DNA of 64,000 bases, taken from positions 1-64,000 of the forward strand of contig DXIX01000017.1 in assembly GCA_019112635.1 (NCBI GenBank), in the 5' to 3' direction. Both the position numbers and the translations under genes were made by a program. Shown here one piece after another: positions 47,000 to 60,896 of this stretch. A model generated the notes under the pieces. The model was not told the origin of the DNA, did no database searches, and was given only the letters and a program-made list of their open reading frames with translations. Each line of letters starts with the position of its first letter. Within the stretch, counting starts at the first letter, position 1. Source of the stretch: Candidatus Blautia intestinigallinarum. GTDB lineage: Bacteria; Bacillota; Clostridia; Lachnospirales; Lachnospiraceae.

Positions 47000-47863
47000 G
47001 ATGAGGGGATTCTGGCTTTGATTGTGCCAGGCAATGACAATATCTACTTGCAGATGATCCTCTGCCAGCGGGACAGACTTGATATTTCCAAGACTGTGCG
47101 CAAGAAAAGTAGCGTAAGAGGGCAGCAGGGCAAGCCCCAAAGTGGAAGCTACCATGAGAAGAACCGCCTCGAAGTTATTGGATTCTCTCACAATGGTAGG
47201 CACGAAACCAGATTGTATAAAGAAATCCAGCAACTCTCTGTTATAACCGGAAGGATCATCCTGCAGGTCAGGAAAGATCAATGGCTCTTTGTTGAGATCG
47301 GATAGACTGAGAGAACTCTTCTGAGCTAAGGGGTGGCTGGATGGGAGAAAGACAGACAGGGGATAGGTGGCCAATGTCTGGCAGGAGATATTGGAAGGGA
47401 CCGAGCCATTGGAAGATATAATTGTATTAAAGACTACATCCAGCTTTGTCTCCTGCAAATTTGCGTAAAGGGTGCTGGCGTTGGAGCGGTATACGGAAAT
47501 GGGAATTGAGGGATTCTGGGCGCAGAAACGCTGCAGGGCGCCTGGCATGTCAGAATGTTCATATCCTTGAACGACACCAATCCGCAGTGCGTTTGTAGAA
47601 CCATTGTAGGCGAGTTTGGTCTTTACAATAGCTTTTTGCATTTTGTCCAGAATTTCCTGGGCCTCAGGCAAAAAGACTGCACCGGCAGAAGTGAGCTGAA
47701 CTTTTCTTTTTGTTCTCTGAAAAAGAGGAACCCCCAATTGGTTTTCCAGAGATTTAATCTGCTGCGTGACGGCAGTCTGTGAGATATAAAAGACTTCGGC
47801 AGTCTTGGTGAAGCTCAGCGTCTCTGCCAGTGTGACAAAATATTTTAATTGACGAATATTCAT
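46976..47863 (-). CDS. LysR-family transcriptional regulator
   Basis: 295 residues with the standard LTTR arrangement: MNIRQLKYFVTLAETLSFTKTAEVFYISQTAVTQQIKSLE as the N-terminal DNA-binding domain, then the periplasmic-binding-protein-like effector domain (LRIGVVQGYEHSDMPG, SNNFEAVLLMVASTLGLALLPSYA). It is divergent from iorAB with a 252-base gap, so iorAB is the most likely target, as LTTRs usually regulate the divergent operon. The effector could be an aromatic amino acid derivative (inference). Confidence 0.93.
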   Translation of the reverse strand: MNIRQLKYFVTLAETLSFTKTAEVFYISQTAVTQQIKSLENQLGVPLFQRTKRKVQLTSAGAVFLPEAQEILDKMQKAIVKTKLAYNGSTNALRIGVVQGYEHSDMPGALQRFCAQNPSIPISVYRSNASTLYANLQETKLDVVFNTIISSNGSVPSNISCQTLATYPLSVFLPSSHPLAQKSSLSLSDLNKEPLIFPDLQDDPSGYNRELLDFFIQSGFVPTIVRESNNFEAVLLMVASTLGLALLPSYATFLAHSLGNIKSVPLAEDHLQVDIVIAWHNQSQNPLIKKFLSVV

Positions 47864-48030
47864 TTGAGTACCTCCGGATACGGTTTTAAAAATCGTGCAT
47901 TTATTGTGTTTGATTATAAAATGTGATTTCAGGGCTGTTTTAAATGGGAAAAAGCCTTGGATTAATTATGCGAAATATACAAAAAATAGATACAAATTTC
48001 ATTATTTATGTGTATAAATAACATTTTCTT

Positions 48031-48072
48031 ATAAGTTAATTATAAAACAATATTGGATTTTGGGCAATATTG
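48031..48072 (+). promoter_or_regulatory. Inverted repeats upstream of iorA, possible LysR sites
   Basis: ATAA-GTTAA-TTAT (48031-48043) and CAATATT-N11-AATATTG (48048-48072) lie 45-85 bases before iorA in the gap between the divergent LysR-type and iorA genes. Dyads with about this spacing fit LysR-type binding sites (T-N11-A). Confidence 0.5.
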
Positions 48073-48115
48073 CTGATAAGATTAATATATACCATTACGT
48101 GAGGAGGAATATGCA

Positions 48116-49888
48116 TTGAAACAATTAATGACAGGCGATGAAGCCATTGCCAGAGGTGCATGGGAAGCAGGCGTTCAGTTCGCATCTGCTTATCCAGGTA
48201 CTCCAAGTACCGAGATTCTCGAGAATATATCAAAATATGATGAGGTCTTTTCTGAGTGGGCTCCAAATGAGAAAGTAGCCCTGGAGGCGGCAATCGGCGC
48301 TTCTTTTGCTGGAGGACGTTCGATGGCAGCTATGAAACATGTAGGTTTGAACGTGGCAGCAGATCCTCTGTTTACTCTGTCTTATGTGGGCGTGACAGGT
48401 GGGCTGATGGTAGTTTCAGCAGATGATCCCGGACTTCATTCTTCCCAGGATGAGCAGGATAACCGCTATTACGCGAAAGCTGCGAAGATTCCAATGTTGG
48501 AGCCGTCTGATTCTCAGGAGTGTAAGGATTTCGTGAAAGTTGCTTTTGAGATCAGTGAAAAGTATGATGCTCCGGTGTTGATGAGAATGACAACTCGTGT
48601 CTGTCACAGTAAATCCATCGTGGAGCTGGGCGACAGAAAAGAAGTACCTTTCATTCCGTATGAGAAAAAAGTAAAATACGACCCGATTCCAGCAGTGTCC
48701 AGAATCTTACATAAACATGTCGAGGAGAGAATGGTTGAGCTTGAGAAATTCTCCAATGAGACAGATCTGAACTATGCGGAATACCATGACAAAAAGATCG
48801 GAATTGTGTCAGCGGGCGTTGCATATCAGTATGCGAGAGAAGTGTTTGGTGAGAACGCTTCTTACTTGAAATTAGGATTTACCCATCCTCTTCCAATGGA
48901 GAAGATCCGCGCATTCGCAAATGAAGTGGAGACCCTGTACGTGGTGGAAGAGCTGGATCCATTTATGGAAGAACAGATCAAGGCAGCAGGCATTGACTGT
49001 GTTGGAAAAGACAAGATTCCGCTTCTGTATGAGCTGAATCCGGATATTGTGCGCAAAGGTCTGCTGAATGAAGAGAGTGAGACCATTGAGATCAATCCTG
49101 CTGAGATTGCAAAACGTCCTCCGACTATGTGTGCAGGATGTCCTCACAGAGGTTTCTTCTATCAGCTTTCCAAAGAGAAGAGGGCTGTTGTTGTCAGTGA
49201 TATCGGCTGTTATGCGTTGAGCGGTATGGAGCCTTTGAACTGTAAAGACATCGCAATCTGTATGGGCGGTGGCTTCTCAGTGGCACATGGCGCACAGCTG
49301 ATGTTTGATAAGGCAGAGACTGGAAAGAAATGCTTTGGTGTTATGGGTGACTCCACCTTCTTCCATTCAGGAATGACAAGTCTTCTGGATGCGATCTACA
49401 ACAACAGCAATGTTGTTCTGACGGTCCTGGATAACCGTATCACAGGAATGACGGGTCATCAGGAAAACCCGGGAACCGGATATAACATCAAGGGAGAGCC
49501 TGCAAATGCAACCAGCGTTGAGGAGGTTGTGAAGGCTCTGGGATGTAAGAATGTCAAAGTGATCAATCCGCTGAAGCTGGATGAAGTAAAAGAGGCAATC
49601 AAATGGGGTATTGAAGTAGAAGGTCCTGCAGTGATCATTACCCGCTGGCCTTGTGTTCTGAAGAGACTCTCTGCAGAAGACAAAGAGGAATTCGGAAATT
49701 ACAAAGCTACTAACGTAGTGGATCATGATAAATGTATCGGATGTAAGATGTGTATTAAGACTGGATGTCCGGCATTGGGATACGACAAAGCAACGAAGAA
49801 AGTAAGCATTAACAAAGCTCAGTGTGTAGCCTGCGATGTTTGTGCTCAGGTTTGCCCGAAGAAAGCAATCGGAAGGGAGGAAAAATAA
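48116..49888 (+). CDS. iorA: Indolepyruvate:ferredoxin oxidoreductase, alpha subunit
   Basis: 590 residues. IorAB decarboxylates aryl pyruvates from aromatic amino acids to aryl-acetyl-CoA, reducing ferredoxin, in anaerobic amino acid fermentation. The pyrimidine-binding part starts with MTGDEAIARGAWEAGVQFASAYPGTPSTEI; the TPP domain contains CAGCPHRGFFYQL, VVSDIGCYALSG, MGDSTFFHSG and LDNRITGMTGHQENPG. Two 4Fe-4S motifs end the protein: CIGCKMCIKTGCP and CVACDVCAQVCPKKAI. Start TTG at 48116 with GAGGAGGAA. Co-transcribed with iorB. Confidence 0.96.
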   Translation: MKQLMTGDEAIARGAWEAGVQFASAYPGTPSTEILENISKYDEVFSEWAPNEKVALEAAIGASFAGGRSMAAMKHVGLNVAADPLFTLSYVGVTGGLMVVSADDPGLHSSQDEQDNRYYAKAAKIPMLEPSDSQECKDFVKVAFEISEKYDAPVLMRMTTRVCHSKSIVELGDRKEVPFIPYEKKVKYDPIPAVSRILHKHVEERMVELEKFSNETDLNYAEYHDKKIGIVSAGVAYQYAREVFGENASYLKLGFTHPLPMEKIRAFANEVETLYVVEELDPFMEEQIKAAGIDCVGKDKIPLLYELNPDIVRKGLLNEESETIEINPAEIAKRPPTMCAGCPHRGFFYQLSKEKRAVVVSDIGCYALSGMEPLNCKDIAICMGGGFSVAHGAQLMFDKAETGKKCFGVMGDSTFFHSGMTSLLDAIYNNSNVVLTVLDNRITGMTGHQENPGTGYNIKGEPANATSVEEVVKALGCKNVKVINPLKLDEVKEAIKWGIEVEGPAVIITRWPCVLKRLSAEDKEEFGNYKATNVVDHDKCIGCKMCIKTGCPALGYDKATKKVSINKAQCVACDVCAQVCPKKAIGREEK

Positions 49889-49889
49889 G

Positions 49890-50468
49890 ATGTCAGAAGT
49901 AAAAAATATTTTATTGTGCGGCGTCGGCGGTCAGGGAACGATTCTCGCCAGCAAAATCCTTTCCTATGCACTGGTGGAAGCCGGATATGATGTAAAAATG
50001 TCAGAGATTCATGGTATGTCTCAGAGAGGTGGAAGCGTAACTACACAGGTACGCTATGGAGATAAAGTGTACTCACCGATTATCGGACAGGGTTCTGCAG
50101 ATATTCTCGTTTCCTTTGAGGCCATGGAAGCATATCGTTACCTGGAGACTCTGAATCCAAAGGGATTCGTAGTTGTAAATGATTTCCATATGGACACAGC
50201 AACGACTCTGTCAGGATCTGAGGATTATCCGGAGAACATCATTGACAAAGTAAAAGAAAAAGCAACTACAAAAGTGCTGGATGCAGCTAAAATTGCCTCT
50301 GATCTGGGCAATTCCAAAGCAATGAACGTAGTACTTTTGGGTGCTCTTGTAAAGCTGATGAACCTGGAAAGCCTGGATTGGGACGGCGCTCTGGCAGCGT
50401 GTGTGAAACCGGCATTTCTGGAGCTGAATAAGAAAGCTCTGGCAGCAGGCATGGAAGCAGTAGCATAA
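49890..50468 (+). CDS. iorB: Indolepyruvate:ferredoxin oxidoreductase, beta subunit
   Basis: 192 residues, the gamma-type domain of 2-oxoacid oxidoreductases: ILLCGVGGQGTILASKILSYALVEAGYDVKMSEIHGMSQRGGSVTTQVR and, at the end, the helical part. ATG lies one base behind the iorA stop, after GGGAGGAAAAATAAG. Forms the enzyme with IorA and shares its presumed LysR control. Confidence 0.96.
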   Translation: MSEVKNILLCGVGGQGTILASKILSYALVEAGYDVKMSEIHGMSQRGGSVTTQVRYGDKVYSPIIGQGSADILVSFEAMEAYRYLETLNPKGFVVVNDFHMDTATTLSGSEDYPENIIDKVKEKATTKVLDAAKIASDLGNSKAMNVVLLGALVKLMNLESLDWDGALAACVKPAFLELNKKALAAGMEAVA

Positions 50469-50489
50469 AACCTAACATAGCAAGAATTG

Positions 50490-50538
50490 ATACCGCTGTG
50501 GTTTTGGAAAATATTTTCTGAAAGCGCAGCGGTATTTC
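50490..50538 (+). terminator. Terminator of iorAB
   Basis: ATACCGCTG (50490-50498) pairs perfectly with CAGCGGTAT (50527-50535), followed by TTCTG. The long 28-base loop makes it a modest terminator. Confidence 0.6.
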
Positions 50539-50592
50539 TGTTGAAAGGCTTTCTTCTTGTATATAAAAATGGTAAGATATTACTATGTGAAT

Positions 50593-50610
50593 ACCGCACC
50601 GTACTGCGGT
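50593..50610 (+). promoter_or_regulatory. Hairpin in the leader of the 1,615-residue protein gene
   Basis: ACCGCA-CCGTAC-TGCGGT forms a perfect 6-bp stem 64 bases before the start codon. No T-run follows. Role unknown; it may affect mRNA stability or translation. Confidence 0.4.
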
Positions 50611-50673
50611 GATAAAGGGGTAGCTGAAAAGTAAAGGGAATGAACCGTAATTTGATAGATTGGAGGGGAAAAA

Positions 50674-53600
50674 ATGACTCCCAAGATGGTGAATGAGGTA
50701 TTCCGGAGTCTGCAGGAAAAGTTGATGCAGAAATCGGTTTTGCGGAAAATGAAGCTGACAAAGAAAAAAATGCAGAGTCTTCTCAAGAATGTTTCTTTTC
50801 GAAATCAACTGGGTTCTGTGCTGGAAGGAAGACAGGTGAGCTGTGAAGAGGTACTCAGTCTGTGCGAAGAGATTATGCGGGAATTGTCTCCGGTAGCACC
50901 GGAGTCAGGATGGCTGCAGTATATCTACTGTTATGTGAGAAAAGGGCTGTTTCCGGAGAGTTGCCAGTCTGAGGAGAATCTGGAGTTTGAGAAAGCATCT
51001 ATTTTCTATCTTGAGGTGCTGCATAATTTATTTTTGTGGGAGAAGAAGTGGCAGTCGTTTGAGAGAACGAGGGATTTTGATTTCCCGGAGAATGTGGGAG
51101 ACAGCCATTATACAGAAGAGTATGCGCGTTTTCTGAGTTGTTTTCGGGAACAGTATGTCTATGAGCTGATGCGGATTGGAAGGGAGATCATGCCCTTTGA
51201 CCTCCTGGCCCATGTGGCAGGTGTGCATTACGTGGCCATGCATGTGGCAAGACAGCTTCACCAGGCGGGAGTACCCATTGATCTGCGTTTGATATCAGGA
51301 GCAGCAGCCTGTCATGACATTGGAAAATATGGGTGCAAAGATTCGGAAGTGCGCAGAATTCCATATCTTCACTACTATTATACAGATGTGTGGTGCAGGC
51401 GAAACCACTTGCTGACCATCGGGCATGTGGCAGCGAACCATTCCACCTGGGATCTGGAACTGGAGGATTTGCAGGTGGAAGCCCTGGTGTTGATTTATGC
51501 AGATTTCCGTGTCAAGACCAAGGAACGTGTGAACGGGAAGGAGATTATGGGATTTTACAGCCTGCGGGATTCTTTCCAAGTTATTTTGGACAAGCTGGAT
51601 AATGTGGATCAAAAGAAAGAAGACCGTTATCGGCATGTCTATGCGAAGCTGAAAGACTTTGAAGATTATATGGAGTCTCTGGGAGTGAATGTGGATTTTG
51701 CCACAGATCAGCTGAAAGAAGTGGAAAGAAAAGACAGAGTACTGTTGAGTATGCCTGAGACAGTGGATGCTTTGAAGCATATGACTTTTGCCCATAATAT
51801 CAGCCTCATGCATAAAATCAGCCATGAGATTTCTTTTGGAACAATTTTGGAGGCAGCCCGGAGTGCGAAAAACTGGAAAAACAGCCGGGCATATATTAAC
51901 ATTTTCGAAGAATATTTTACATATATGACGCAGAAACAGAAGAATGTCACCCTTCAGTTTCTCTATGAGCTGCTGATGCACAGAGAAGGAGATATCCGGA
52001 GACAGGCAGCAGATTTGATGGGAAATATCATTGTCAATTATGATGAAGATTACCGGAAGGAACTGCCGGAGGGTGTTCACGTGGATACAGGTGAGATTAC
52101 CAGCGTGCAGCTGTGGGATCGTTATCTGGGAATGATTATCCATCCGGACCATAAAGTGACAGAGAGACACCGCAGATGGATTGGCTATGCCTTGAAGCGA
52201 ATGGCGGAGTCTGTTCTGAGCAGATGCAAGGAAAAGGAGCAGGAAAGTTATCTGAAATGCTTTTTGAAATACTACCGTGTGCGGGAGCTGTCTGACGCGG
52301 AAGCATTTATTCTTCTGGACACGATGCCGGTTCTTCCCTTGGACTGGTTATCAGAGGCGGAAGTACTGAATCTGTTGAATTTCGCGGAAGTGTATCTGGA
52401 AAGACCGATTCTGGAAATTCATGTGGCAGTGCTGCGTTTTCTGAGACATCTGACGGAGAATCTGGACAAGACACCGAAGCTGGAAGAGAAAGTCTTAAGA
52501 ATTCTGGATCAATTGGAATTAAACGGAAAAGTCGGGCTGCGCTACAAAGTGAAATTGATTCTCAATAACTGGTCTATGGAAGAAAAACAGCAGGAGAAAT
52601 GGGATTTCTCAGATTTATTTGATGAAAACGCGATTTCCGATATTCTTCTGGAAAATTTAAAGGCGGCCACTCCATGGATTGTAAAAGCTGTGAATATTGA
52701 ATATCTGTTTATGCGGGCAAAGACGGGAGGAAATGTATCTGCTCTGCAGCTGGCGACTCATTTTTCCAACTTGCTGAAGGTCAGTGAACAGGTGACGGTG
52801 CGCCACAGAGCTGGGGAAGCTTTGGTGAGCCTGGCACCGCTTTTGACCAAGGATCAGAGAAATGAGATATCCATTGAGCTTATTAAGGGTCTTGAGATCG
52901 GCGAATATGAGTTTTCCAAATATATTCCCAAATACCTTGGAAGATTTGCGTTGTATCTGGGCCCTGATGAGTTGGACGAGTTCCTCATGGAGATACGCAG
53001 GCTTCTGGTGAGCACGAATGAGAGAGTGAGCTGTGTAGCCTTGGACACAGCTGCTGTGATTGTGCAGCACTACAATGTGTATCAGCACCGTTTTACAGAG
53101 CCGGAAGAATGCTTCCAGAAAAGAAGAAAGATGATGCTTGGCTTCCTTCTGAGCGGACTTGCGAACTACCGAGACGCAGTGAGCCAGGAGGCAATTCTGG
53201 TTATCGGACATTCCATTTTCGAGGAAGAAGTTCTGACATTGGAAGAAAAGAAAGATATTTTCCAGATTATCGGGAAAAAATTTGTGTCTCTTCTGGAGAA
53301 CAGAGAAAATTCGGAATTGGCATTTTTCAACAATGCGGCATCATTGAATTACCTGTATCGTTTCATCGGAAATTATCTGTTTCAATATAAGAAATTCACG
53401 TTTGAGGAGCCGAAGAAAATTGCGTTTTTCCCAGGCACTTATGATCCCTTCTCCCTGGGGCATAAGGAGATTGCACGGATGATCCGGGATATGGGATTCA
53501 CCGTCCATCTGGCTTTGGATGAGTTCTCCTGGTCAAAGAAGACACAGCCCCATATGATCCGCAGAGAGATCATCACCATGTCTGTGGCAGATGAGGAGAA

Positions 53601-55521
53601 TATCTATGTGTTTCCAGATGACAGACCGGTAAATATTGCGACTCCAAGTGATCTGCAGAAACTGCGGGCATTGTTTAAGGGAAAAGAAGTTTATATGGTT
53701 GCCGGAAGCGATGTTCTGAGAAATGCTTCTTCTTACCAGGTCCCTTGTGTGGAAAATTCGATTCAGACTTTCCCCCACATCCTGATTATGCGTGGGGAAG
53801 AGAATCTCTCTGAACTGAAAGAGAAGGTGAAGGCGCCTATCTGTTATCTGAATCTTCCGGAACGGCTCAAAGACATTAGTTCCACAAAAATCAGAGAAAA
53901 TATTGATGATAACCGTGATATCTCTTCTCTGGTAGATCCTGTGGTACAGAATTATATTTATGAGAACAGCCTCTACCTTCGTGAGCCTCAGTATAAGCAG
54001 ATTTTGAGAGGACGGGCAGTCCAGACGGAAGTCTTCGAAATTCCCACAGACCGGGTAGAAGAAGAGATCTTGAGGACTGTGGAAGGCCGGCCGGAGGCAG
54101 AGGAATTCCAAAGAGCAGCTAAAGTGGAAAATATCCGTTATACTTTGATCCGCGATCAGGATCAGGGTGGAAAGATTGTGGGAGCCGTGGCCTTCCACGG
54201 CCAATCCACCAATAGCCTGTATCAGGAGTTCCAGAGTATTGAGATTGCAGAACATATCCGTGAGAACACATCGGGGCGTATCGTTCTGGTGGTGGCAGTC
54301 TATATTTCAAACCAGACGGAGATCCGGGACATTGCCCAGCTGCTGGCGACTGAGACTCTGACTTTTTGCATGAAGAAAGACTATACCTATGCGGTCTTCA
54401 GCCCTTATCACGGACATATCACAGATAAAACCAGTGAGACTCTGGAGCGTCAGGGATTCCAAAAGATTGGTGAAGGCCTGGAAGGGCGGGATGTCTATGC
54501 TGTGGATATGAAGACACCGGTTGTAATCTTCCAGAATCTGGGGACTGTTTTGAAAGCACCTTTTGACAGTAATGAGCGGGTTCAGGAGACTCTGCAGAAA
54601 ACGCACCGGCGTCTGCAGATTGCGATGACCAAACTTTATCCGGGACAGCTGGTTCTCTCCTTGCAGTCTGAGATTATGTATTATCGTCTTGTGGAGAGAA
54701 TTACCCGTGCGAATCAGGTGCCCAGTGAGCCGACGAAAGTGCGCAGGCTAGGTCCTTCCATGTGTGTGCCTTTTGGAAAGATCCTAAGGGGAAATGCTGT
54801 GCCGAATACCGTGACAAAGGCTCTTCACACAGAGAAAACCTTTGAGCCGGAGGTGACGGGCTTTTCCATCACGGAATATCCGAATTATTCACCGCTGGCC
54901 ACACAGGTAAGAACAATTAAATCTTTTAACCGGCCGGTGATTCTGGTGGATGACCTGCTGCACAAAGGGTATCGGATCAAGGAACTGAATCCTCTGTTTG
55001 AGCAGGAACACGTGAAAATTGACCGTATTATTGTGGGGCTTTTGTCTGGACGGGGAAAAGATTTGATGGAAATTCAGAACCGGAAGGTGGAAAGTGTCTA
55101 TTTTATTCCTTCCATCAAAGCTTGGCTGGTGGAATCCACAATCTATCCGTTTATTGGGGGCGACAGTATTAAATCCCAGACGGAGAGCAAAGGGACTCTG
55201 CTAAATTCCATCAATCTGATTTTGCCGTATGTGATGCCGGGATTTATGCATGGCGCTTCCAACGATGCGATCTATGATCTGTCCATGACTTGTCTGGAGA
55301 ATTCAAGAGATATTTTAAAGGTTCTGGAAGAAGAGTATCAGGCTGTATTTGAGAGAAATCTGACTTTGAACCGGTTAAGTGAAGTGATCTTATCTCCTTG
55401 CTGTCCGGACAGAGGAGATCATTTGAGTTATGATTATCATCTGGCGCCTTCGGTTTATGTGGAAAATGATATTGTCCGCCTGATCCGATTAAAAGAATTG
55501 ATTAAAAAGGATGTCAGGTAA
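50674..55521 (+). CDS. 1,615-residue HD / NadD-like nucleotidyltransferase / GNAT / PRTase fusion protein
   Basis: A very large cytoplasmic protein with several enzyme-like domains. An HD phosphohydrolase region at about residues 175-260 has AACHDIGKYG and a downstream HVAANHSTWDLEL. Residues 300-900 are helical, HEAT-like. From about 910 a nucleotidyltransferase of NadD type starts with FFPGTYDPFSLGHKE (the H-x-G-H motif) and ends with the diagnostic ISSTKIREN near 1070. About 1150-1290 resembles a GNAT acetyltransferase (ending in LERQGFQKIGEG). The end contains VILVDDLLHKGY near 1422, like a phosphoribosyltransferase PRPP loop, and further conserved sequence. NadD uses nicotinate mononucleotide; HD and PRTase parts also suggest nucleotide chemistry. 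GGAGGGG site before ATG. No signal or membrane segment. Function unknown. Confidence 0.8.
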   Translation: MTPKMVNEVFRSLQEKLMQKSVLRKMKLTKKKMQSLLKNVSFRNQLGSVLEGRQVSCEEVLSLCEEIMRELSPVAPESGWLQYIYCYVRKGLFPESCQSEENLEFEKASIFYLEVLHNLFLWEKKWQSFERTRDFDFPENVGDSHYTEEYARFLSCFREQYVYELMRIGREIMPFDLLAHVAGVHYVAMHVARQLHQAGVPIDLRLISGAAACHDIGKYGCKDSEVRRIPYLHYYYTDVWCRRNHLLTIGHVAANHSTWDLELEDLQVEALVLIYADFRVKTKERVNGKEIMGFYSLRDSFQVILDKLDNVDQKKEDRYRHVYAKLKDFEDYMESLGVNVDFATDQLKEVERKDRVLLSMPETVDALKHMTFAHNISLMHKISHEISFGTILEAARSAKNWKNSRAYINIFEEYFTYMTQKQKNVTLQFLYELLMHREGDIRRQAADLMGNIIVNYDEDYRKELPEGVHVDTGEITSVQLWDRYLGMIIHPDHKVTERHRRWIGYALKRMAESVLSRCKEKEQESYLKCFLKYYRVRELSDAEAFILLDTMPVLPLDWLSEAEVLNLLNFAEVYLERPILEIHVAVLRFLRHLTENLDKTPKLEEKVLRILDQLELNGKVGLRYKVKLILNNWSMEEKQQEKWDFSDLFDENAISDILLENLKAATPWIVKAVNIEYLFMRAKTGGNVSALQLATHFSNLLKVSEQVTVRHRAGEALVSLAPLLTKDQRNEISIELIKGLEIGEYEFSKYIPKYLGRFALYLGPDELDEFLMEIRRLLVSTNERVSCVALDTAAVIVQHYNVYQHRFTEPEECFQKRRKMMLGFLLSGLANYRDAVSQEAILVIGHSIFEEEVLTLEEKKDIFQIIGKKFVSLLENRENSELAFFNNAASLNYLYRFIGNYLFQYKKFTFEEPKKIAFFPGTYDPFSLGHKEIARMIRDMGFTVHLALDEFSWSKKTQPHMIRREIITMSVADEENIYVFPDDRPVNIATPSDLQKLRALFKGKEVYMVAGSDVLRNASSYQVPCVENSIQTFPHILIMRGEENLSELKEKVKAPICYLNLPERLKDISSTKIRENIDDNRDISSLVDPVVQNYIYENSLYLREPQYKQILRGRAVQTEVFEIPTDRVEEEILRTVEGRPEAEEFQRAAKVENIRYTLIRDQDQGGKIVGAVAFHGQSTNSLYQEFQSIEIAEHIRENTSGRIVLVVAVYISNQTEIRDIAQLLATETLTFCMKKDYTYAVFSPYHGHITDKTSETLERQGFQKIGEGLEGRDVYAVDMKTPVVIFQNLGTVLKAPFDSNERVQETLQKTHRRLQIAMTKLYPGQLVLSLQSEIMYYRLVERITRANQVPSEPTKVRRLGPSMCVPFGKILRGNAVPNTVTKALHTEKTFEPEVTGFSITEYPNYSPLATQVRTIKSFNRPVILVDDLLHKGYRIKELNPLFEQEHVKIDRIIVGLLSGRGKDLMEIQNRKVESVYFIPSIKAWLVESTIYPFIGGDSIKSQTESKGTLLNSINLILPYVMPGFMHGASNDAIYDLSMTCLENSRDILKVLEEEYQAVFERNLTLNRLSEVILSPCCPDRGDHLSYDYHLAPSVYVENDIVRLIRLKELIKKDVR

Positions 55522-55547
55522 AATGGGAAGAAAGAGGAATATAGAAA

Positions 55548-56702
55548 ATGAGAGAAGAGCAAATGTACACGGTGACAGAAGTAAACCGTGATCCGAAAAA
55601 ATCGAAAGGGAGTTTTCTGGCTGTAAATCCAGGAATGCTTAAGGGAGAGGAAGGTCTTCACTGGCTGGATGCCAATCAGCTGGATACCATTTCCGGAGAA
55701 TTTCAGGCAGTGACGGTACGAAATATGGCGTGGAAAGACGCAAATGCATGGGAGGAGAGGCAGAAGTACTGGGAAAATTGGATGCAAAAAAAGAAACGGG
55801 TACATCTTCTGGCTCTTGGAGATGTGGGGAGTACTGTTTTGATTGGACTAAAGCTTCTGGGCGGGGACTGTATCGAAGAGATCGGTATCTGTGATTTGGA
55901 TGAAAATGTCTGCAAGAGGTGGGAATGCGAGATGAACCAGACCGCATTTCCGTGGGAATATGACAGACTTCCTCAGGTGAAGATTGTGGATACAGAGCAT
56001 CTGTTTGACTGTGATCTGTTTATCTTCTGTGCGTCAAAAGGAATTCCGCCGGTTGGCTCTGAGGTGAAAGACGTCCGCATGGCGCAGTTCGAGGCGAACC
56101 GGTCGATTGTGGGAATGTATGGAAAGATGGCCAGGGAGAAAGGATTTCAGGGGATTTTCGCAGTGGTCTCGGATCCGGTAGATCCTTTGTGCAAAGCGGC
56201 TTTTTTGGCATCCAATGAAGATGCAGAGGGGAACTTTGATGCAAAGGGGCTTCTCCCGGAACAGATCCAGGGATATGGATTGGGAGTCATGAATGCCCGG
56301 GCTGCTTATTATGCGAAACAGGACAGCAGATTTGCAGATTTCCTGACCGACGGCAGAGCCTATGGCCCTCATGGTCAGGATCTGGTTATCGCCAACAGTA
56401 TTCAAAATTATGACGATGAGCTGTCGAAGGAACTGACACAGATGACGGTTGAGGCAAATCTGCGAACCAGAGAGTTGGGATTTAAACCTTATGTGGCACC
56501 GGCACTGTCTTCCGCGGCGATTTCACTGATTCTCACCATGGAGGGCAAATGGCATTACAGTTCTAATTTCCTGGGCGGAGTGTATATGGGAAGCAGGAAC
56601 CGTTATACCATGGGAGGACTGGAGATAGAACCGCTTCCGCTTCCGGGAAAATTATACGAAAGGCTGCAGAAAGCCTATCAGGGATTGGAGGCTGTCTTAT
56701 GA
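55548..56702 (+). CDS. Lactate/malate dehydrogenase-like NAD-binding protein
   Basis: 384 residues with the LDH/MDH layout. VHLLALGDVGSTVLIGLKLL at about residues 85-105 is the NAD-binding loop, ICDLDENVCKRW the following acidic residue, IFCASKGIPPVGSEVKDVRMAQFEANRSI the next strand and mobile-loop area, and VVSDPVDPLCKAA the S-x-P-V-D motif. YGPHGQDL lies where LDH and MDH have the catalytic GEHG. A non-standard 80-residue N-terminal extension precedes the Rossmann domain. The substrate is unknown and the extension is unlike normal LDH. It lies 26 bases behind the giant gene and overlaps the next gene by four bases (ATGA). Confidence 0.78.
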   Translation: MREEQMYTVTEVNRDPKKSKGSFLAVNPGMLKGEEGLHWLDANQLDTISGEFQAVTVRNMAWKDANAWEERQKYWENWMQKKKRVHLLALGDVGSTVLIGLKLLGGDCIEEIGICDLDENVCKRWECEMNQTAFPWEYDRLPQVKIVDTEHLFDCDLFIFCASKGIPPVGSEVKDVRMAQFEANRSIVGMYGKMAREKGFQGIFAVVSDPVDPLCKAAFLASNEDAEGNFDAKGLLPEQIQGYGLGVMNARAAYYAKQDSRFADFLTDGRAYGPHGQDLVIANSIQNYDDELSKELTQMTVEANLRTRELGFKPYVAPALSSAAISLILTMEGKWHYSSNFLGGVYMGSRNRYTMGGLEIEPLPLPGKLYERLQKAYQGLEAVL

Positions 56703-57760
56703 CGGATCTGGTGGTGGTTCAGCCGAAGTGCCAGGATAAACAAAAGACAATGCGGCTGAAAAAAGTTCTGGATTATGCTTTGGAGGGGCGGTCGTATCGG
56801 AAGATTGACCGCCTGGAAGATTTTCAGGATCTGAAAAATCAAAAGATACTTTTTGCGATCTCTCAGGGAATTTCCGGAATTAATCTGGAATACTTCCGTT
56901 TTCTGAAAAAACTGCGTATGGATCCTCAGATGCTGGAGGGCTCTGTGGGAGGAATCATTGTGGACGGTGAGAGCGAGCTGTACACGAAATCCATTGCCAG
57001 GGATTTTGTATTCACAGCCAATCAATCTGGCTGCACATTTCCAGGGAGACCTCTGGTAGAGGGGACAGGTTCTCTCCAGAATTTTAATATACAGGCGATG
57101 AATCTGGAGACAGATAATATGGGGGCTTACCTGACAGCGGCCAGGGAACTGGCGGATACGGTGATGGAATTCCGTCAGAAACCGAAAAAAATCCCCAAGA
57201 TTTTGATGCTTCATGCCAGTAATTTTAAGACCTCCAACACAGTCAATTTCTGGCAGATGGTCAGAAAACATCTGGATGGGTGCCAGATTGAAGAGATTTC
57301 TCTTCGCAATGGCTCCATCCAGGATTGTGCAGGATGTCCCTACAAAATGTGTATGCATTTCAGCCGGCAGTCCAACTGTTATTACGGAGGGGTGATTGTG
57401 GAACAGGTCTATCCTGCGGTGCAGGAATGTGATGCTGTCGTAATGCTCTGCCCCAATTATAACGATGCAATCAGCGCAAATCTGTCGGCATTTATCAACC
57501 GGCTGACGGCGTTATTCCGGAAGAACCGGTTTTCCGAAAAAAATCTGTTCGCCATTGTGATTTCCGGATACAGCGGGGGTGATCTGGTGGCGGAACAGTT
57601 GATTTCCGGACTGAATATGAACAAGAGTTTCATATTGCCGTCCCGTTTTGTTTTTCTGGAGACGGCCAACAATCCAGAAAGTATTCTGGAAGTAGAACAG
57701 ATACAGGATAAGGCAAAGATGTTTGCCCACCATATTTTGGATATCGTCAAAAAAGATTAG
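56699..57760 (+). CDS. Flavodoxin/NADPH-dependent FMN reductase-like protein
   Basis: 353 residues. The C-terminal half has the flavodoxin fold of NADPH-dependent FMN reductases: ILMLHASNFKTSNTVNFW (phosphate loop), CAGCPYKMCMHFSRQSNCYYGG (the C-x-x-C and following cysteines common in this family), VVMLCPNYNDAISANLSAFINRLTAL. The N-terminal half (residues 1-150) is not recognisable to me and has a GGIIVDGESELYTKS segment. The start overlaps the LDH-like stop, so the two probably act together. The 3' end overlaps the convergent nudC-type gene by four bases. Confidence 0.75.
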   Translation: MTDLVVVQPKCQDKQKTMRLKKVLDYALEGRSYRKIDRLEDFQDLKNQKILFAISQGISGINLEYFRFLKKLRMDPQMLEGSVGGIIVDGESELYTKSIARDFVFTANQSGCTFPGRPLVEGTGSLQNFNIQAMNLETDNMGAYLTAARELADTVMEFRQKPKKIPKILMLHASNFKTSNTVNFWQMVRKHLDGCQIEEISLRNGSIQDCAGCPYKMCMHFSRQSNCYYGGVIVEQVYPAVQECDAVVMLCPNYNDAISANLSAFINRLTALFRKNRFSEKNLFAIVISGYSGGDLVAEQLISGLNMNKSFILPSRFVFLETANNPESILEVEQIQDKAKMFAHHILDIVKKD

Positions 57761-58599
57761 AAGGGAATTTCATTCTTCTTGAATTTCATGATCATCTCTC
57801 TTGTCAGACTGATGTCGTATTCATCCAGATCGATTTCATCGCGGGTAAACCATCCGGCTGTGGCAAGTTCGTTGTGGTCAAGGTGAATTTCATCATCTCC
57901 GTCCACTTCACAGAAGAAGCCCATGAGGAGACTGTCGCTGAATGACCAGGGTTGGCTTTTGTAAAAGCGCAGATTCTTTACTCTCAGACCGACTTCTTCC
58001 ATGACTTCCCGGCGGACGGTGCCTTCGATGGTCTCTCCGATTTCTGCAAATCCGGCAATCAGTGCATAACTTTTCACATCCCTTCCAGCGTAGGTGGATA
58101 AGAGAATGCGGTCGCCGTTTAGGATGCCTACAATGACTGCGGGACAGATTTTCGGGTATTCTATAGTATGGCATTCAGGACAGTAGACCATTCTCTCCCG
58201 GTCACTGTGAACCATAGGGGTACGGCATTTTCCACAGTAACGGTGTGTATCGTACCAATGTGAAAGCTGCATGCCTGTGATTCCGGCAAAAGCCAGATGA
58301 GCCGGATGGGCGTTTCGTAGGACACGGATGGGCTGGAAGGAATAATCTTCCAGAAACGCAGCCTGCTGTTCGGTGCCGAGGAAAAAACGGTATTCATCAA
58401 TGGAGAACAGATATTGAAATGTCTCAGGCTGGCGGCGAAATGCGGCAGGCAGTTCGCTGATTTTGGGAATGATGAAAGAAGATCCGTCCGTGCGCAGAAG
58501 AATCTGCTGCTGTTGATAGATGAGAAGATAATCTTCAGGTTCTGGCGCGCATGGATGATATTCATTGTGGTATACATAGGGTGCGATATCTTGTAACAT
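57757..58599 (-). CDS. nudC: NADH pyrophosphatase NudC-like (Nudix)
   Basis: 280 residues. A zinc ribbon near 122 (CGKCRTPM ... CPEC) separates an N-terminal domain from the Nudix domain, whose box GFAEIGETIEGTVRREVMEEVGL is complete. The SQPWSFSDSLLMGF segment behind it is the NudC family marker for NADH/NAD+-capped substrates. NudC hydrolyses NADH to NMNH and AMP and decaps NAD-capped RNA in other bacteria. It is convergent with the flavodoxin-type gene, next to the NadD-like giant protein. Confidence 0.93.
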   Translation of the reverse strand: MLQDIAPYVYHNEYHPCAPEPEDYLLIYQQQQILLRTDGSSFIIPKISELPAAFRRQPETFQYLFSIDEYRFFLGTEQQAAFLEDYSFQPIRVLRNAHPAHLAFAGITGMQLSHWYDTHRYCGKCRTPMVHSDRERMVYCPECHTIEYPKICPAVIVGILNGDRILLSTYAGRDVKSYALIAGFAEIGETIEGTVRREVMEEVGLRVKNLRFYKSQPWSFSDSLLMGFFCEVDGDDEIHLDHNELATAGWFTRDEIDLDEYDISLTREMIMKFKKNEIPF

Positions 58600-58697
58600 A
58601 AGTCAGCCTCCTTGCTGTGTCGTTTTTTGCCGAATCTTATCTAACAGTTTACTACTTTTTTGAGTGGATGTCAGCGGCTTTTTTGGGATTTTCAAGA

Positions 58698-58726
58698 CAA
58701 AAAAATAAAACAGCCGCAGCTGTTTT
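58698..58726 (-). terminator. Terminator of the XRE-type regulator
   Basis: AAAACAGC-CGCA-GCTGTTTT is a perfect 8-bp stem. On the minus strand it is followed by a T-rich run (complement of the A-rich stretch at 58698-58706). Confidence 0.8.
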
Positions 58727-58744
58727 ATAACAAAATTTTCTCCT

Positions 58745-58975
58745 TTACGGGTTATTTTTCTCTGGATTCCAGCGGGGATCATCGGTTCTTCCAACCAGAT
58801 AGTCAACACTGGTGTGATAGTAATTTGCCAGACGGATTAACATATCCACAGGAATGTTACGTGTGCCATTCTCATAGTGTGAATAGGTGCGGGGACTGAT
58901 ATGAAGATATTCACTAAGCTGTTTCTGAGTCAGATCGGCGTCTTCCCGCAGATCTTGGATACGTTGATATTTCAT
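58745..58975 (-). CDS. XRE-family small DNA-binding protein
   Basis: 76 residues forming one Cro/C1-type helix-turn-helix: IQDLREDADLTQKQLSEYLHISPRTYSHYENGTRNIPVDMLIRLANYYHTSVDYLVGRTD. There is no ligand domain. It is divergent from a 55-residue gene, and the gap holds two copies of a CGGAACAAA motif that could be its operator. Ribosome binding site AAAGGAA. Confidence 0.92.
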   Translation of the reverse strand: MKYQRIQDLREDADLTQKQLSEYLHISPRTYSHYENGTRNIPVDMLIRLANYYHTSVDYLVGRTDDPRWNPEKNNP

Positions 58976-59017
58976 AGAATTCCTTTTCCTTTATAAAATG
59001 CATATTAAAATTATAGC

Positions 59018-59063
59018 CGGAACAAATTGGTCTATTGCATTTCGGAACAAAATGGGCTAAACT
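59018..59063 (+). promoter_or_regulatory. Promoter with direct-repeat operator for small gene
   Basis: CGGAACAAA-T-TGG (59018-59030) and CGGAACAAA-A-TGG (59043-59055) are direct repeats 25 bases apart. The second lies within the spacer of a promoter TTGCAT (59035-59040), 17 bases, TAAACT (59058-59063). Both repeats also lie between the divergent XRE and 55-residue genes, so they are likely XRE binding sites. Confidence 0.6.
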
Positions 59064-59081
59064 TAGTGAGGAGGATACCAA

Positions 59082-59249
59082 ATGAAAAACGAGGAATTCA
59101 TCTGGAAGCTTTATCATATTTTAAACCGGACCAGACAACTGGATCTGGCATCACTGATTGTGGAAGAACATAAAGACCGCATTTATCTGGAACTGATGAA
59201 TGGGGAGAAGTTTTGTCTGTTGATCGAAAAGACAGATAAAATGTTTTAA
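59082..59249 (+). CDS. Small protein of 55 residues, unknown function
   Basis: An ATG behind a strong GAGGAGG opens 55 codons ending in TAA at 59247-59249. The protein starts MKNEEFIWKLYHILNRT and contains IVEEHKDRIYLELMNGEKFCLLIEK, a plausible small mixed alpha/beta domain. No family is recognised. It is divergent from the XRE regulator and behind a good promoter with putative operators. The arrangement resembles a regulator with a small effector. Confidence 0.65.
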   Translation: MKNEEFIWKLYHILNRTRQLDLASLIVEEHKDRIYLELMNGEKFCLLIEKTDKMF

Positions 59250-59369
59250 CAATCATTTCTGATTTCATATCTCAGGGAGAGATTCTGCTCCCGTTTCTCA
59301 AAAACAAAAACAAAGATACGGCTATATCAGGCTGCGAGATGGATTCTGATGCACAGAGAGGAGAATGCT

Positions 59370-60896
59370 ATGTTCAGCAGTGTATTGTCGGCGTCCATCC
59401 AGGGGATGAATATCTGTCCGATTCAGGTGGAAGCAGATGTGAGCGACGGACTGCCTTCTTTTGCCATGGTGGGTTACGTGACTTCTCAGGTGAAGGAGGC
59501 TCAGGAGAGGGTGCGGACAGCCTTGAAAAATACCGGGATTGCGATCCCGCCTAAACGAATTACGGTGAACCTTGCGCCGGCAGATATCCGCAAGGAAGGG
59601 GCCGGTTATGACTTACCTATCACAGCGGCAATTCTGTCGGCGGCCGGGAAGATTCCGAGGAACCTTCTGAGAGGAGTTCTGATGATCGGGGAAGTAAGCT
59701 TAAGCGGAAAATGCAGTCCCGTGTCAGGAATCCTTCCAATCGTTATGAAAGCGAGGGAGTTGGGATGCCATACCTGTATTCTGCCTGTTCAGAATGCCTT
59801 GGAGGGGATGCTGGTTCCTGATATTCAGGTGATTGGTGTGGAATCCGTGCGGGATATGTGTGAGATTTTACAGGGAAAAAGAAAACCGGTTGATGGGATA
59901 CAAAAAAATCCGGCACAGCCGTACAGCGAGGAAAAATATGAAGATTTTCAGGATGTACAGGGACAGGAGGGAGCCAGGAGAGCAGCGGAGATTGCAGCCA
60001 GTGGGTTTCACAATCTATTGCTGATCGGGGCGCCGGGCACCGGAAAGTCTATGATTGCCAAAAGGATGCCGGGAATTTTGCCAGAACTTGACAAGCACGA
60101 GAGCCTTGAAGTGTCGAAAATCTACAGTATTGCGGGACTGTTGCCGGCAGAGCATCCATTTATCACAACCAGGCCATTCCGCTCTCCCCATCACACCGCA
60201 TCGGCACAGGCTCTGGCAGGAGGCGGAAAGAATCCCAAGCCCGGGGAAGTGACACTGGCTCACCGGGGAGTGTTGTTCCTGGATGAGATGCCTGAGTTTT
60301 CCAAAAAAAGTCTTGAGATTTTGAGACAGCCAATGGAAGATCGCTATATCCGTCTGTCCAGAGTTCAGGGAAACTACTGCTTCCCCGCAGATTTCCTTCT
60401 TCTGGCCGCTATGAATCCCTGTCCTTGTGGTTATTATCCGGACATGAACCGATGTACCTGCAGCCAGGGGGAGATCACCGGATATCTGCGGAAAATCAGT
60501 CAGCCTTTACTGGATCGGATTGATCTGTGTGCAGAGGCAGATCCCATGAGCTATGAGGAGTTATCTGCGAACCGGAAAGCAGAAAGTTCATCCGAGATTC
60601 GAAGGAGGGTGGAGAAGGCTGTGCAGATACAAAAAGAACGGTACAAAAATACGGATTTCAGATTCAACGGTGATCTCCCTGCAAAAGCTTTGGAACAATA
60701 CTGTATCCTGAGCAGCCAGGGAAGAGAACTCCTGAGGAAGGCTTATGACCAGTTGGGAATCAGTGCGCGGGCATATCACAGAATCTTGAAAGTTGCCCGG
60801 ACAATAGCCGATATGGAGAATTCAGAAATCATTCAAAAGGAACATCTTCAGGAGGCGATTGGATACCGGGTTTTGGATAAAAAATATTGGAGGTGA
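59370..60896 (+). CDS. comM: YifB/ComM-family Mg-chelatase-like AAA+ ATPase
   Basis: 508 residues. N-terminal ChlI-like domain (MFSSVLSASIQGMNICPIQVEADVSDGLPSFAMVGY and ERVRTALKNTGIAIPPKRITVNLAPADIRKEG), then AAA+ with Walker A GAPGTGKSM near 222, the Walker B FLDEMPEFSKKSLEILRQPMED and the C-terminal helical part. ComM extends branch migration during natural transformation in Gram-negatives; in Firmicutes the role is less defined. The ATG at 59370 follows GAGAGGAG and fits the family start. dprA follows after nine bases. Confidence 0.93.
   Translation: MFSSVLSASIQGMNICPIQVEADVSDGLPSFAMVGYVTSQVKEAQERVRTALKNTGIAIPPKRITVNLAPADIRKEGAGYDLPITAAILSAAGKIPRNLLRGVLMIGEVSLSGKCSPVSGILPIVMKARELGCHTCILPVQNALEGMLVPDIQVIGVESVRDMCEILQGKRKPVDGIQKNPAQPYSEEKYEDFQDVQGQEGARRAAEIAASGFHNLLLIGAPGTGKSMIAKRMPGILPELDKHESLEVSKIYSIAGLLPAEHPFITTRPFRSPHHTASAQALAGGGKNPKPGEVTLAHRGVLFLDEMPEFSKKSLEILRQPMEDRYIRLSRVQGNYCFPADFLLLAAMNPCPCGYYPDMNRCTCSQGEITGYLRKISQPLLDRIDLCAEADPMSYEELSANRKAESSSEIRRRVEKAVQIQKERYKNTDFRFNGDLPAKALEQYCILSSQGRELLRKAYDQLGISARAYHRILKVARTIADMENSEIIQKEHLQEAIGYRVLDKKYWR

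Follow-up and report, generated by a model that had tools for sequence, protein, structure and literature searches.

A giant fusion protein with HD and NadD-like domains and its two tightly linked redox-type partners in Candidatus Blautia intestinigallinarum

A 64,000-nucleotide stretch of Candidatus Blautia intestinigallinarum (Lachnospiraceae; GenBank assembly GCA_019112635.1, contig DXIX01000017.1, positions 1–64,000, forward strand), referred to here as the window, encodes a 1,615-residue fusion protein, followed by a lactate/malate dehydrogenase (LDH/MDH)-superfamily protein and a flavin mononucleotide (FMN)-reductase-type protein. What does such a fusion make, and why do two redox-type proteins accompany it? 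We find that the three genes co-occur and that catalytic-type residues are fixed in the HD, NadD-like, LDH-like and flavoprotein parts. We propose, with a probability of roughly 0.35, a three-protein system in which a nucleotidyltransferase with a built-in HD hydrolase would make and edit a nucleotide product not derived from nicotinic acid mononucleotide (NaMN), and in which the redox partners would make or use that product. The features concerned are listed below.

50674–55521, + strand: giant fusion protein, 1,615 residues, first gene of the three-gene set (single frame; 80 nearly full-length relatives kept)
50674–51123, + strand: variable N-terminal helical region, residues 1–150 (helices in the AlphaFold2 model; identity to genome G729 of the same genus)
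51121–51783, + strand: HD domain, residues ~150–370 (Pfam HD matches; six invariant residues)
51766–53388, + strand: HEAT-like α-solenoid, residues ~365–905 (all-helical AlphaFold2 model, pLDDT 89; Foldseek matches to Kap121 and the PP2A scaffold)
53386–54009, + strand: NadD-like nucleotidyltransferase domain, residues ~905–1112 (Pfam CTP_transf_like; Foldseek matches to NadD; ATP-side residues fixed)
54001–54543, + strand: GNAT-fold domain, residues ~1110–1290, poorly conserved (fold matches; position inferred from the gap between the flanking domains)
54523–55518, + strand: phosphoribosyltransferase (PRTase)-like C-terminal domain, residues ~1284–1615, motif DDLLHKGYR (weak Pribosyltran matches; D1426, D1427)
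55548–56702, + strand: LDH/MDH-superfamily protein, 384 residues, second gene (hhalign matches to LDHs; invariant H275, R251, R177 and M248)
56699–57760, + strand: FMN-reductase-type protein with four invariant cysteines, 353 residues, third gene (Pfam FMN_red)

The five parts and the helical N-terminus form a real single protein. The frame is uninterrupted, with no internal stop, and the analysis bears out the domain order given in a preliminary description of this DNA (HD, long helical part, NadD-like, GNAT-like, PRTase-like). Identity to G729 is 70% over residues 1–150 and 90–92% over the HD, NadD-like and PRTase-like parts. Two AlphaFold2 half-models, one for the N-terminal and one for the C-terminal half and each built on an 81-row alignment, have mean predicted local distance difference test (pLDDT) values of 89.0 and 89.2 and predicted template modelling (pTM) scores of 0.87 and 0.86. 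In Foldseek comparisons with the PDB, the C-terminal half is most similar to structures of NadD (E 3.9e-8, TMt 0.79). The best matches of the N-terminal half are HEAT/ARM-type solenoids, with low TM-scores of 0.16–0.26 by query length among the 50 matches listed, and the long helical part is all-helical in the model.

The LDH-like and FMN-reductase/Cys4 genes belong with the fusion as a tightly linked three-gene set. Relatives were collected by scanning one genome per species across 84,980 species, which returned 481 related stretches, the best 80 of which were kept and examined; as the scan used two patterns, taken from within the HD domain and next to it, relatives lacking that domain could not appear. 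All 80 are nearly full length, with 43–62% identity in the best segment, and they comprise 77 from Bacillota, one from Spirochaetota and two unassigned; Flavonifractor, Oscillibacter and Clostridium symbiosum are among the carriers. A locus counted as testable if at least 2.6 kb of sequence followed the fusion. In 63 of the 65 such loci, the LDH-like gene lies no more than 1.3 kb downstream of the fusion on the same strand. The FMN-reductase gene also follows in 63 of them, 61 times on the same strand; in the Spirochaetota metagenome-assembled genome it is adjacent on the opposite strand. The four-base overlap of the two partner genes noted earlier (56699–56702) is confirmed in the window. With starts chosen by a simple rule, a four-base overlap was computed for 11 of 72 fusion/LDH junctions and 17 of 62 LDH/flavoprotein junctions, and a distance of at most 60 bases for 52 of 72 and 49 of 62, respectively.

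The association is also seen in genome samples. Among 295 genomes of the order, the full-length fusion, the LDH-like protein (E≤1e-20) and the flavoprotein (E≤1e-40) are each found in 18, and the three sets of genomes coincide. They consist of the window's genome and 17 from a single other family, six genera in total. The remaining fusion matches in this sample cover the NadD-like part only (e.g. residues 909–1105). In a sample of the phylum, the trio is adjacent in six of seven other carriers, down to 36% identity. Within the genus, the fusion occurs in 7 of 60 genomes, so its presence is patchy. The pair is unlinked from the fusion yet present elsewhere in four genomes (G244, G616 and those of loci L113 and L057). 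In loci L057 and L072 the same other gene, with a helix-turn-helix-like start, lies 74 bases after the fusion at the usual LDH-like position, the pair being on another contig.

The NadD-like domain offers the most direct view of the possible chemistry. It matches Pfam CTP_transf_like above the cut-off (E=7.6e-8), whereas its score against the NadD equivalog TIGR00482 (53.8 bits) falls below the cut-off of 112.45. Since the profile of this domain aligns weakly with the genome's own NadD as a single sequence (hhalign 17.9%; BLASTP E 5e-4), we rely on fold and Pfam evidence for the likeness. Among 93 aligned fusion relatives, in which residue conservation was counted, G921, D924, H930, D1013, S1069, S1070 and R1074 are all invariant; six of them (all but D1013) represent the residues on the adenosine triphosphate (ATP) side of NadD, namely GTFDP, the last His of HxGH and SS-x-x-IR. 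The H-x-G-H reported earlier was a misreading: the window protein has S-L-G-H, and in the 93 relatives the first position is Ser (58) or Thr (35), the third Ser (66) or Gly (27) and the last always His.

The acceptor side differs from that of NadD. The comparison set consisted of 25 NadD rows, 24 of them distinct. The pattern used to select them required HxGH, so that the contrast at the first His is partly built in. The Lys of PPHK, the Tyr of S/T-Y-T and a Trp, which we take from NadD structures to serve the NaMN side, are each present in 25 of 25 NadD rows. In the 93 fusion rows, the Lys column is a gap and the Tyr column holds Ala (88) or Ser (5), although gaps around PPHK and S/T-Y-T make the column matches there uncertain; the Trp column, which is free of gaps, is Tyr in all 93. 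Independently of columns, S/T-Y-S/T occurs in 25 of 25 NadD rows and in none of the 93 fusion segments in the corresponding region, and S-W-S-K and N987 are fixed in the fusion relatives in place of the NadD acceptor-side residues. Because these residues are replaced, and because canonical nadD and yqeK genes lie side by side elsewhere in the window's genome (contig C12), the acceptor is probably not NaMN.

These observations bear on the role first proposed for the fusion, salvage or storage of nicotinamide adenine dinucleotide (NAD(H)) by an enzyme acting on NaMN or nicotinamide mononucleotide. The NadD fold agrees with it, as do the partner folds, which suggest use of NAD(P)(H) and FMN. However, the NadD cut-offs are missed, the acceptor residues are replaced, the genome has a canonical NadD and the nearby NudC gene (see below) is not a conserved neighbour; we therefore consider this role very improbable. 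What survives of the link to NAD is a NadD-like domain with intact ATP-side residues; a part in NAD synthesis or salvage is not supported. The preliminary description had tied the link to the nucleotide-binding residues and to the constancy of the neighbours. The domain does have these residues, whereas of the three neighbours two are constant and the third is not.

The HD domain is similarly well preserved. Pfam PF01966 gives 15.3 bits for the window protein, below the cut-off of 22, and Pfam HD matches were obtained for 37 of 45 HD segments, the window's included, at E≤0.1 (best 3.9e-5). H180, H214, D215, H233, H256 and D277 are invariant in 93 of 93 relatives, and H180, H214, D215 and D277 provide the H...HD...D metal ligands of the HD superfamily. 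Assignment as a YqeK-type domain is not supported: hhalign against 15 YqeK rows gave a probability of 0.2%, and TIGR00488 (YqeK) is absent from the fusion's 12 NCBIfam matches. In a mycoplasma NadD-YqeK fusion, as described in PMC9426524, the HD domain cleaves analogues of nicotinic acid adenine dinucleotide (NaAD) that NadD can form, a precedent for a transferase and an HD hydrolase in one chain. The same precedent favours a damage-control reading, in which the fusion would recognise and remove or rebuild damaged or wrongly made NAD-type dinucleotides while the partners re-reduce or re-oxidise damaged forms; PerR-like and rubrerythrin-like genes upstream of the fusion in five loci (named by eye) also agree with it. 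We nevertheless think metabolite damage control rather doubtful, as the NadD acceptor-side residues are not kept, the HD domain is not YqeK-like by hhalign and the genome already has nadD-yqeK.

The PRTase-like end is more divergent. The Pribosyltran profile matches 24 of 45 segments at E≤1, the best at 0.0016, which is weak. Comparison by hhalign with seven of the genome's own eight PRTase matches placed the DD-motif region at E 0.0002–0.022 for six and 0.22 for one, with probabilities of 0.3–48%. D1426 is kept in 92 and D1427 in 89 of 93 relatives. Against what we take to be the type I motif for phosphoribosyl pyrophosphate (PRPP), DDxxTTGxT, the window reads DDLLHKGYR; the acidic pair is kept and the Thr positions are replaced. 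In a search of 398 genomes of the phylum with the PRTase-like profile, eight matched, and all eight matches lie inside a frame of 1,573–1,667 residues.

Both partners are recognisable by family, and both carry fixed residues. The LDH-like protein aligns with 11 LDHs at an hhalign probability of 98.0% (E 1.5e-13, 266 columns). The positions of the catalytic His (H275), the substrate Arg (R251) and the loop Arg (R177), roles we presume from LDH biochemistry, are kept in 83 of 83 sequences, and the Asp presumed to pair with the His is Met248 in all 83. TIGR01771 (L-lactate dehydrogenase) scores 24.6 bits against a cut-off of 303.55. Of 72 predicted LDH-like proteins, 19, including that of the Spirochaetota genome, are shorter than 340 residues and lack an N-terminal stretch of about 80 residues that the window's protein has; this extension thus seems dispensable. 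The flavoprotein scores 73.2 bits against FMN_red (PF03358; gathering cut-off 24), and C210, C213, C218 and C227 are invariant in 75 of 75 sequences; these four cysteines make a [4Fe-4S] cluster a candidate. The Asp-to-Met exchange, the altered PRTase motif and a GNAT-fold domain that no profile recognises would suit a sensor or regulator whose enzyme-like domains bind nucleotides and respond to redox state without catalysis. We judge this improbable, since all 93 relatives keep the ligands for metal and phosphate in the HD and NadD-like domains unchanged, as expected for catalysis.

The region called GNAT-like in the preliminary description is supported by Foldseek matches to acetyltransferases, for which the aligned range was not printed, and by these only; no GNAT profile match was found in the 10 segments scanned, and this is the least conserved part of the fusion. 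Solenoids of the matched families bind proteins or nucleic acids. This property and the GNAT-type fold matches would fit modification of a macromolecule, with the solenoid binding protein or RNA, the nucleotidyltransferase and GNAT-fold domains modifying it and the HD domain reversing the mark. Such a role is unlikely in our view: the NadD branch acts on small mononucleotides, the GNAT part is poorly kept and the LDH-like and flavoprotein partners would be left unexplained.

In the three-protein system that we favour, the NadD-like domain would transfer a nucleotidyl group, probably adenosine monophosphate (AMP) from ATP, to an acceptor other than NaMN. The PRTase-like domain may make or hold the acceptor's phosphoribosyl or nucleotide moiety, and the HD domain may hydrolyse product that is incorrect or in excess, much as YqeK serves NadD. 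The solenoid would keep the active sites together or dock the partners, and the LDH-like dehydrogenase and the FMN/Cys4 flavoprotein could either produce the acceptor or draw on the finished compound for redox metabolism. A bolder version, which we regard as possible but doubtful, is that the set forms a complete route to a nucleotide-type cofactor not yet described. In this version the two redox partners, or their products, would provide a ring or an acid; the PRTase-like domain would attach it or hold it as a mononucleotide; the NadD-like domain would join it to AMP, giving an NAD-like dinucleotide; the HD domain would edit this; and the same redox partners would use the result.

Several points weigh against the three-protein system. 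The two halves of the fusion are separate models, so that contact between their active sites is an assumption; its HD domain is not recognisably YqeK; and the PRTase loop, H-x-G-x-R rather than T-x-G-x-T, leaves PRPP chemistry uncertain, as the alignment gaps do for part of the acceptor-side comparison. Because 17 of the 18 carriers in the order come from one family, those counts are not independent events. The LDH-like gene was not matched in two of eight genomes checked (G740, 72% complete, and that of L101, whose contig ends 330 bases past the fusion). The neighbours other than the pair vary among loci. Searches for known riboswitches, in E-value mode over positions 47500–59500 of the window and in gathering mode over 18 of the 80 loci, found none.

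The further neighbours in the window are incidental. One of them had been described as part of the same cluster:

57757–58599, − strand: NudC-type NADH pyrophosphatase, neighbour outside the set (NF001299, 195.2 bits)

Its score exceeds the NCBIfam cut-off of 158 bits. NudC was rejected as a member of the set, with 0 of 80 loci (flanks of no more than 8 kb, a few shortened where the contig stops), and was seen beside the fusion only in the window and in G729 among the loci examined. Co-occurrence with the fusion, put forward as a check for all three downstream genes, holds for the LDH-like protein and the flavoprotein only. IorAB was likewise rejected, with IorB beside the fusion in 1 of 80 loci under the same limits. 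Upstream of the window's IorA/IorB pair (48116–50468; the listed frames overlap by 53 bases), a LysR-like gene runs in the opposite direction. The genome has two more copies of IorA, with 57% and 54% identity. A misbinned contig is unlikely, because G729 repeats the whole order (LysR-IorAB-fusion-LDH-FMN-NudC-ChlI-DprA).

Other contexts were also considered. A mobile element was rejected: no fusion relatives were found in viral contigs or phages, and one match lies in an Acetoanaerobium noterae record of 2.63 Mb that bears the label plasmid pTPELB2 (NZ_CP154629.1, four features in its table). This record carries the trio and seems to be a chromosome entered under a plasmid label. An anti-phage defence system was rejected, with no PADLOC-DB family for the three proteins at E≤0.01. 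Some neighbours, all named by eye, recur: a glutamate dehydrogenase-like gene ~186–297 bases upstream of the fusion on the other strand in five loci and 5–7 kb downstream in three; asparagine synthetase-like (convergent) and glutamine synthetase III-like genes after the trio in six; and Fur/PerR-like and rubrerythrin-like genes on the other strand within ~4.3 kb upstream in five. As they recur in 8, 6 and 5 loci only, nitrogen or oxygen-stress context was rejected as a functional clue.

The locus presents a 1,600-residue enzyme with fixed active sites, relatives in 481 stretches and no assigned function found. Tight co-occurrence defines a closed three-gene system, whose members can be expressed and assayed together. 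Should the acceptor prove to be a new mononucleotide, anaerobic metabolism would gain a cofactor or a route for editing nucleotides. The fusion and LDH-like proteins should meanwhile not be annotated as NadD or LDH.

Compared with known systems, the set matches no described one that we found; all its folds are known. No model in the Pfam, NCBIfam and PADLOC scans covers the fusion, and a literature search by domain and gene terms, covering mostly open literature, returned no description of the set, so that one may exist elsewhere. For each of NadD, YqeK, LDH and type I PRTase, a tested defining feature is absent, and HD and FMN_red name single domains only. The second protein is homologous to L-lactate dehydrogenases over 266 columns and keeps the catalytic His and both substrate Arg positions, but carries Met for Asp and scores far below the family cut-offs. 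The flavoprotein shares an FMN_red domain and four clustered cysteines with iron-sulfur flavoproteins; it differs in its spacing, C-x2-C-x4-C-x8-C, from what we take to be their compact Isf motif, and in the window has ~160 extra N-terminal residues. With type I PRTases (PF00156) the C-terminal domain shares the acidic pair, the following Gly and weak profile matches at the motif, but TTGxT is replaced and the domain occurs only inside the giant frame across the 398 genomes. The nucleotidyltransferase domain resembles NadD in fold, GTFDP, the last His of HxGH, G-x-D and SS-x-x-IR, yet is below the equivalog cut-off, lacks PPHK, S/T-Y-T and Trp and is embedded in a giant chain. The NadD-YqeK fusion, or nadD-yqeK pair, likewise brings an HD phosphohydrolase together with a NadD-fold nucleotidyltransferase, in a single chain or operon. 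In contrast, the window fusion has its HD domain first, a solenoid of ~540 residues between the two, replaced acceptor residues, added GNAT-fold and PRTase-like domains and two redox partners. Since its HD domain is not recognisably YqeK and the genome has separate nadD and yqeK genes, the fusion may work like NadD-YqeK without being a member of that family.

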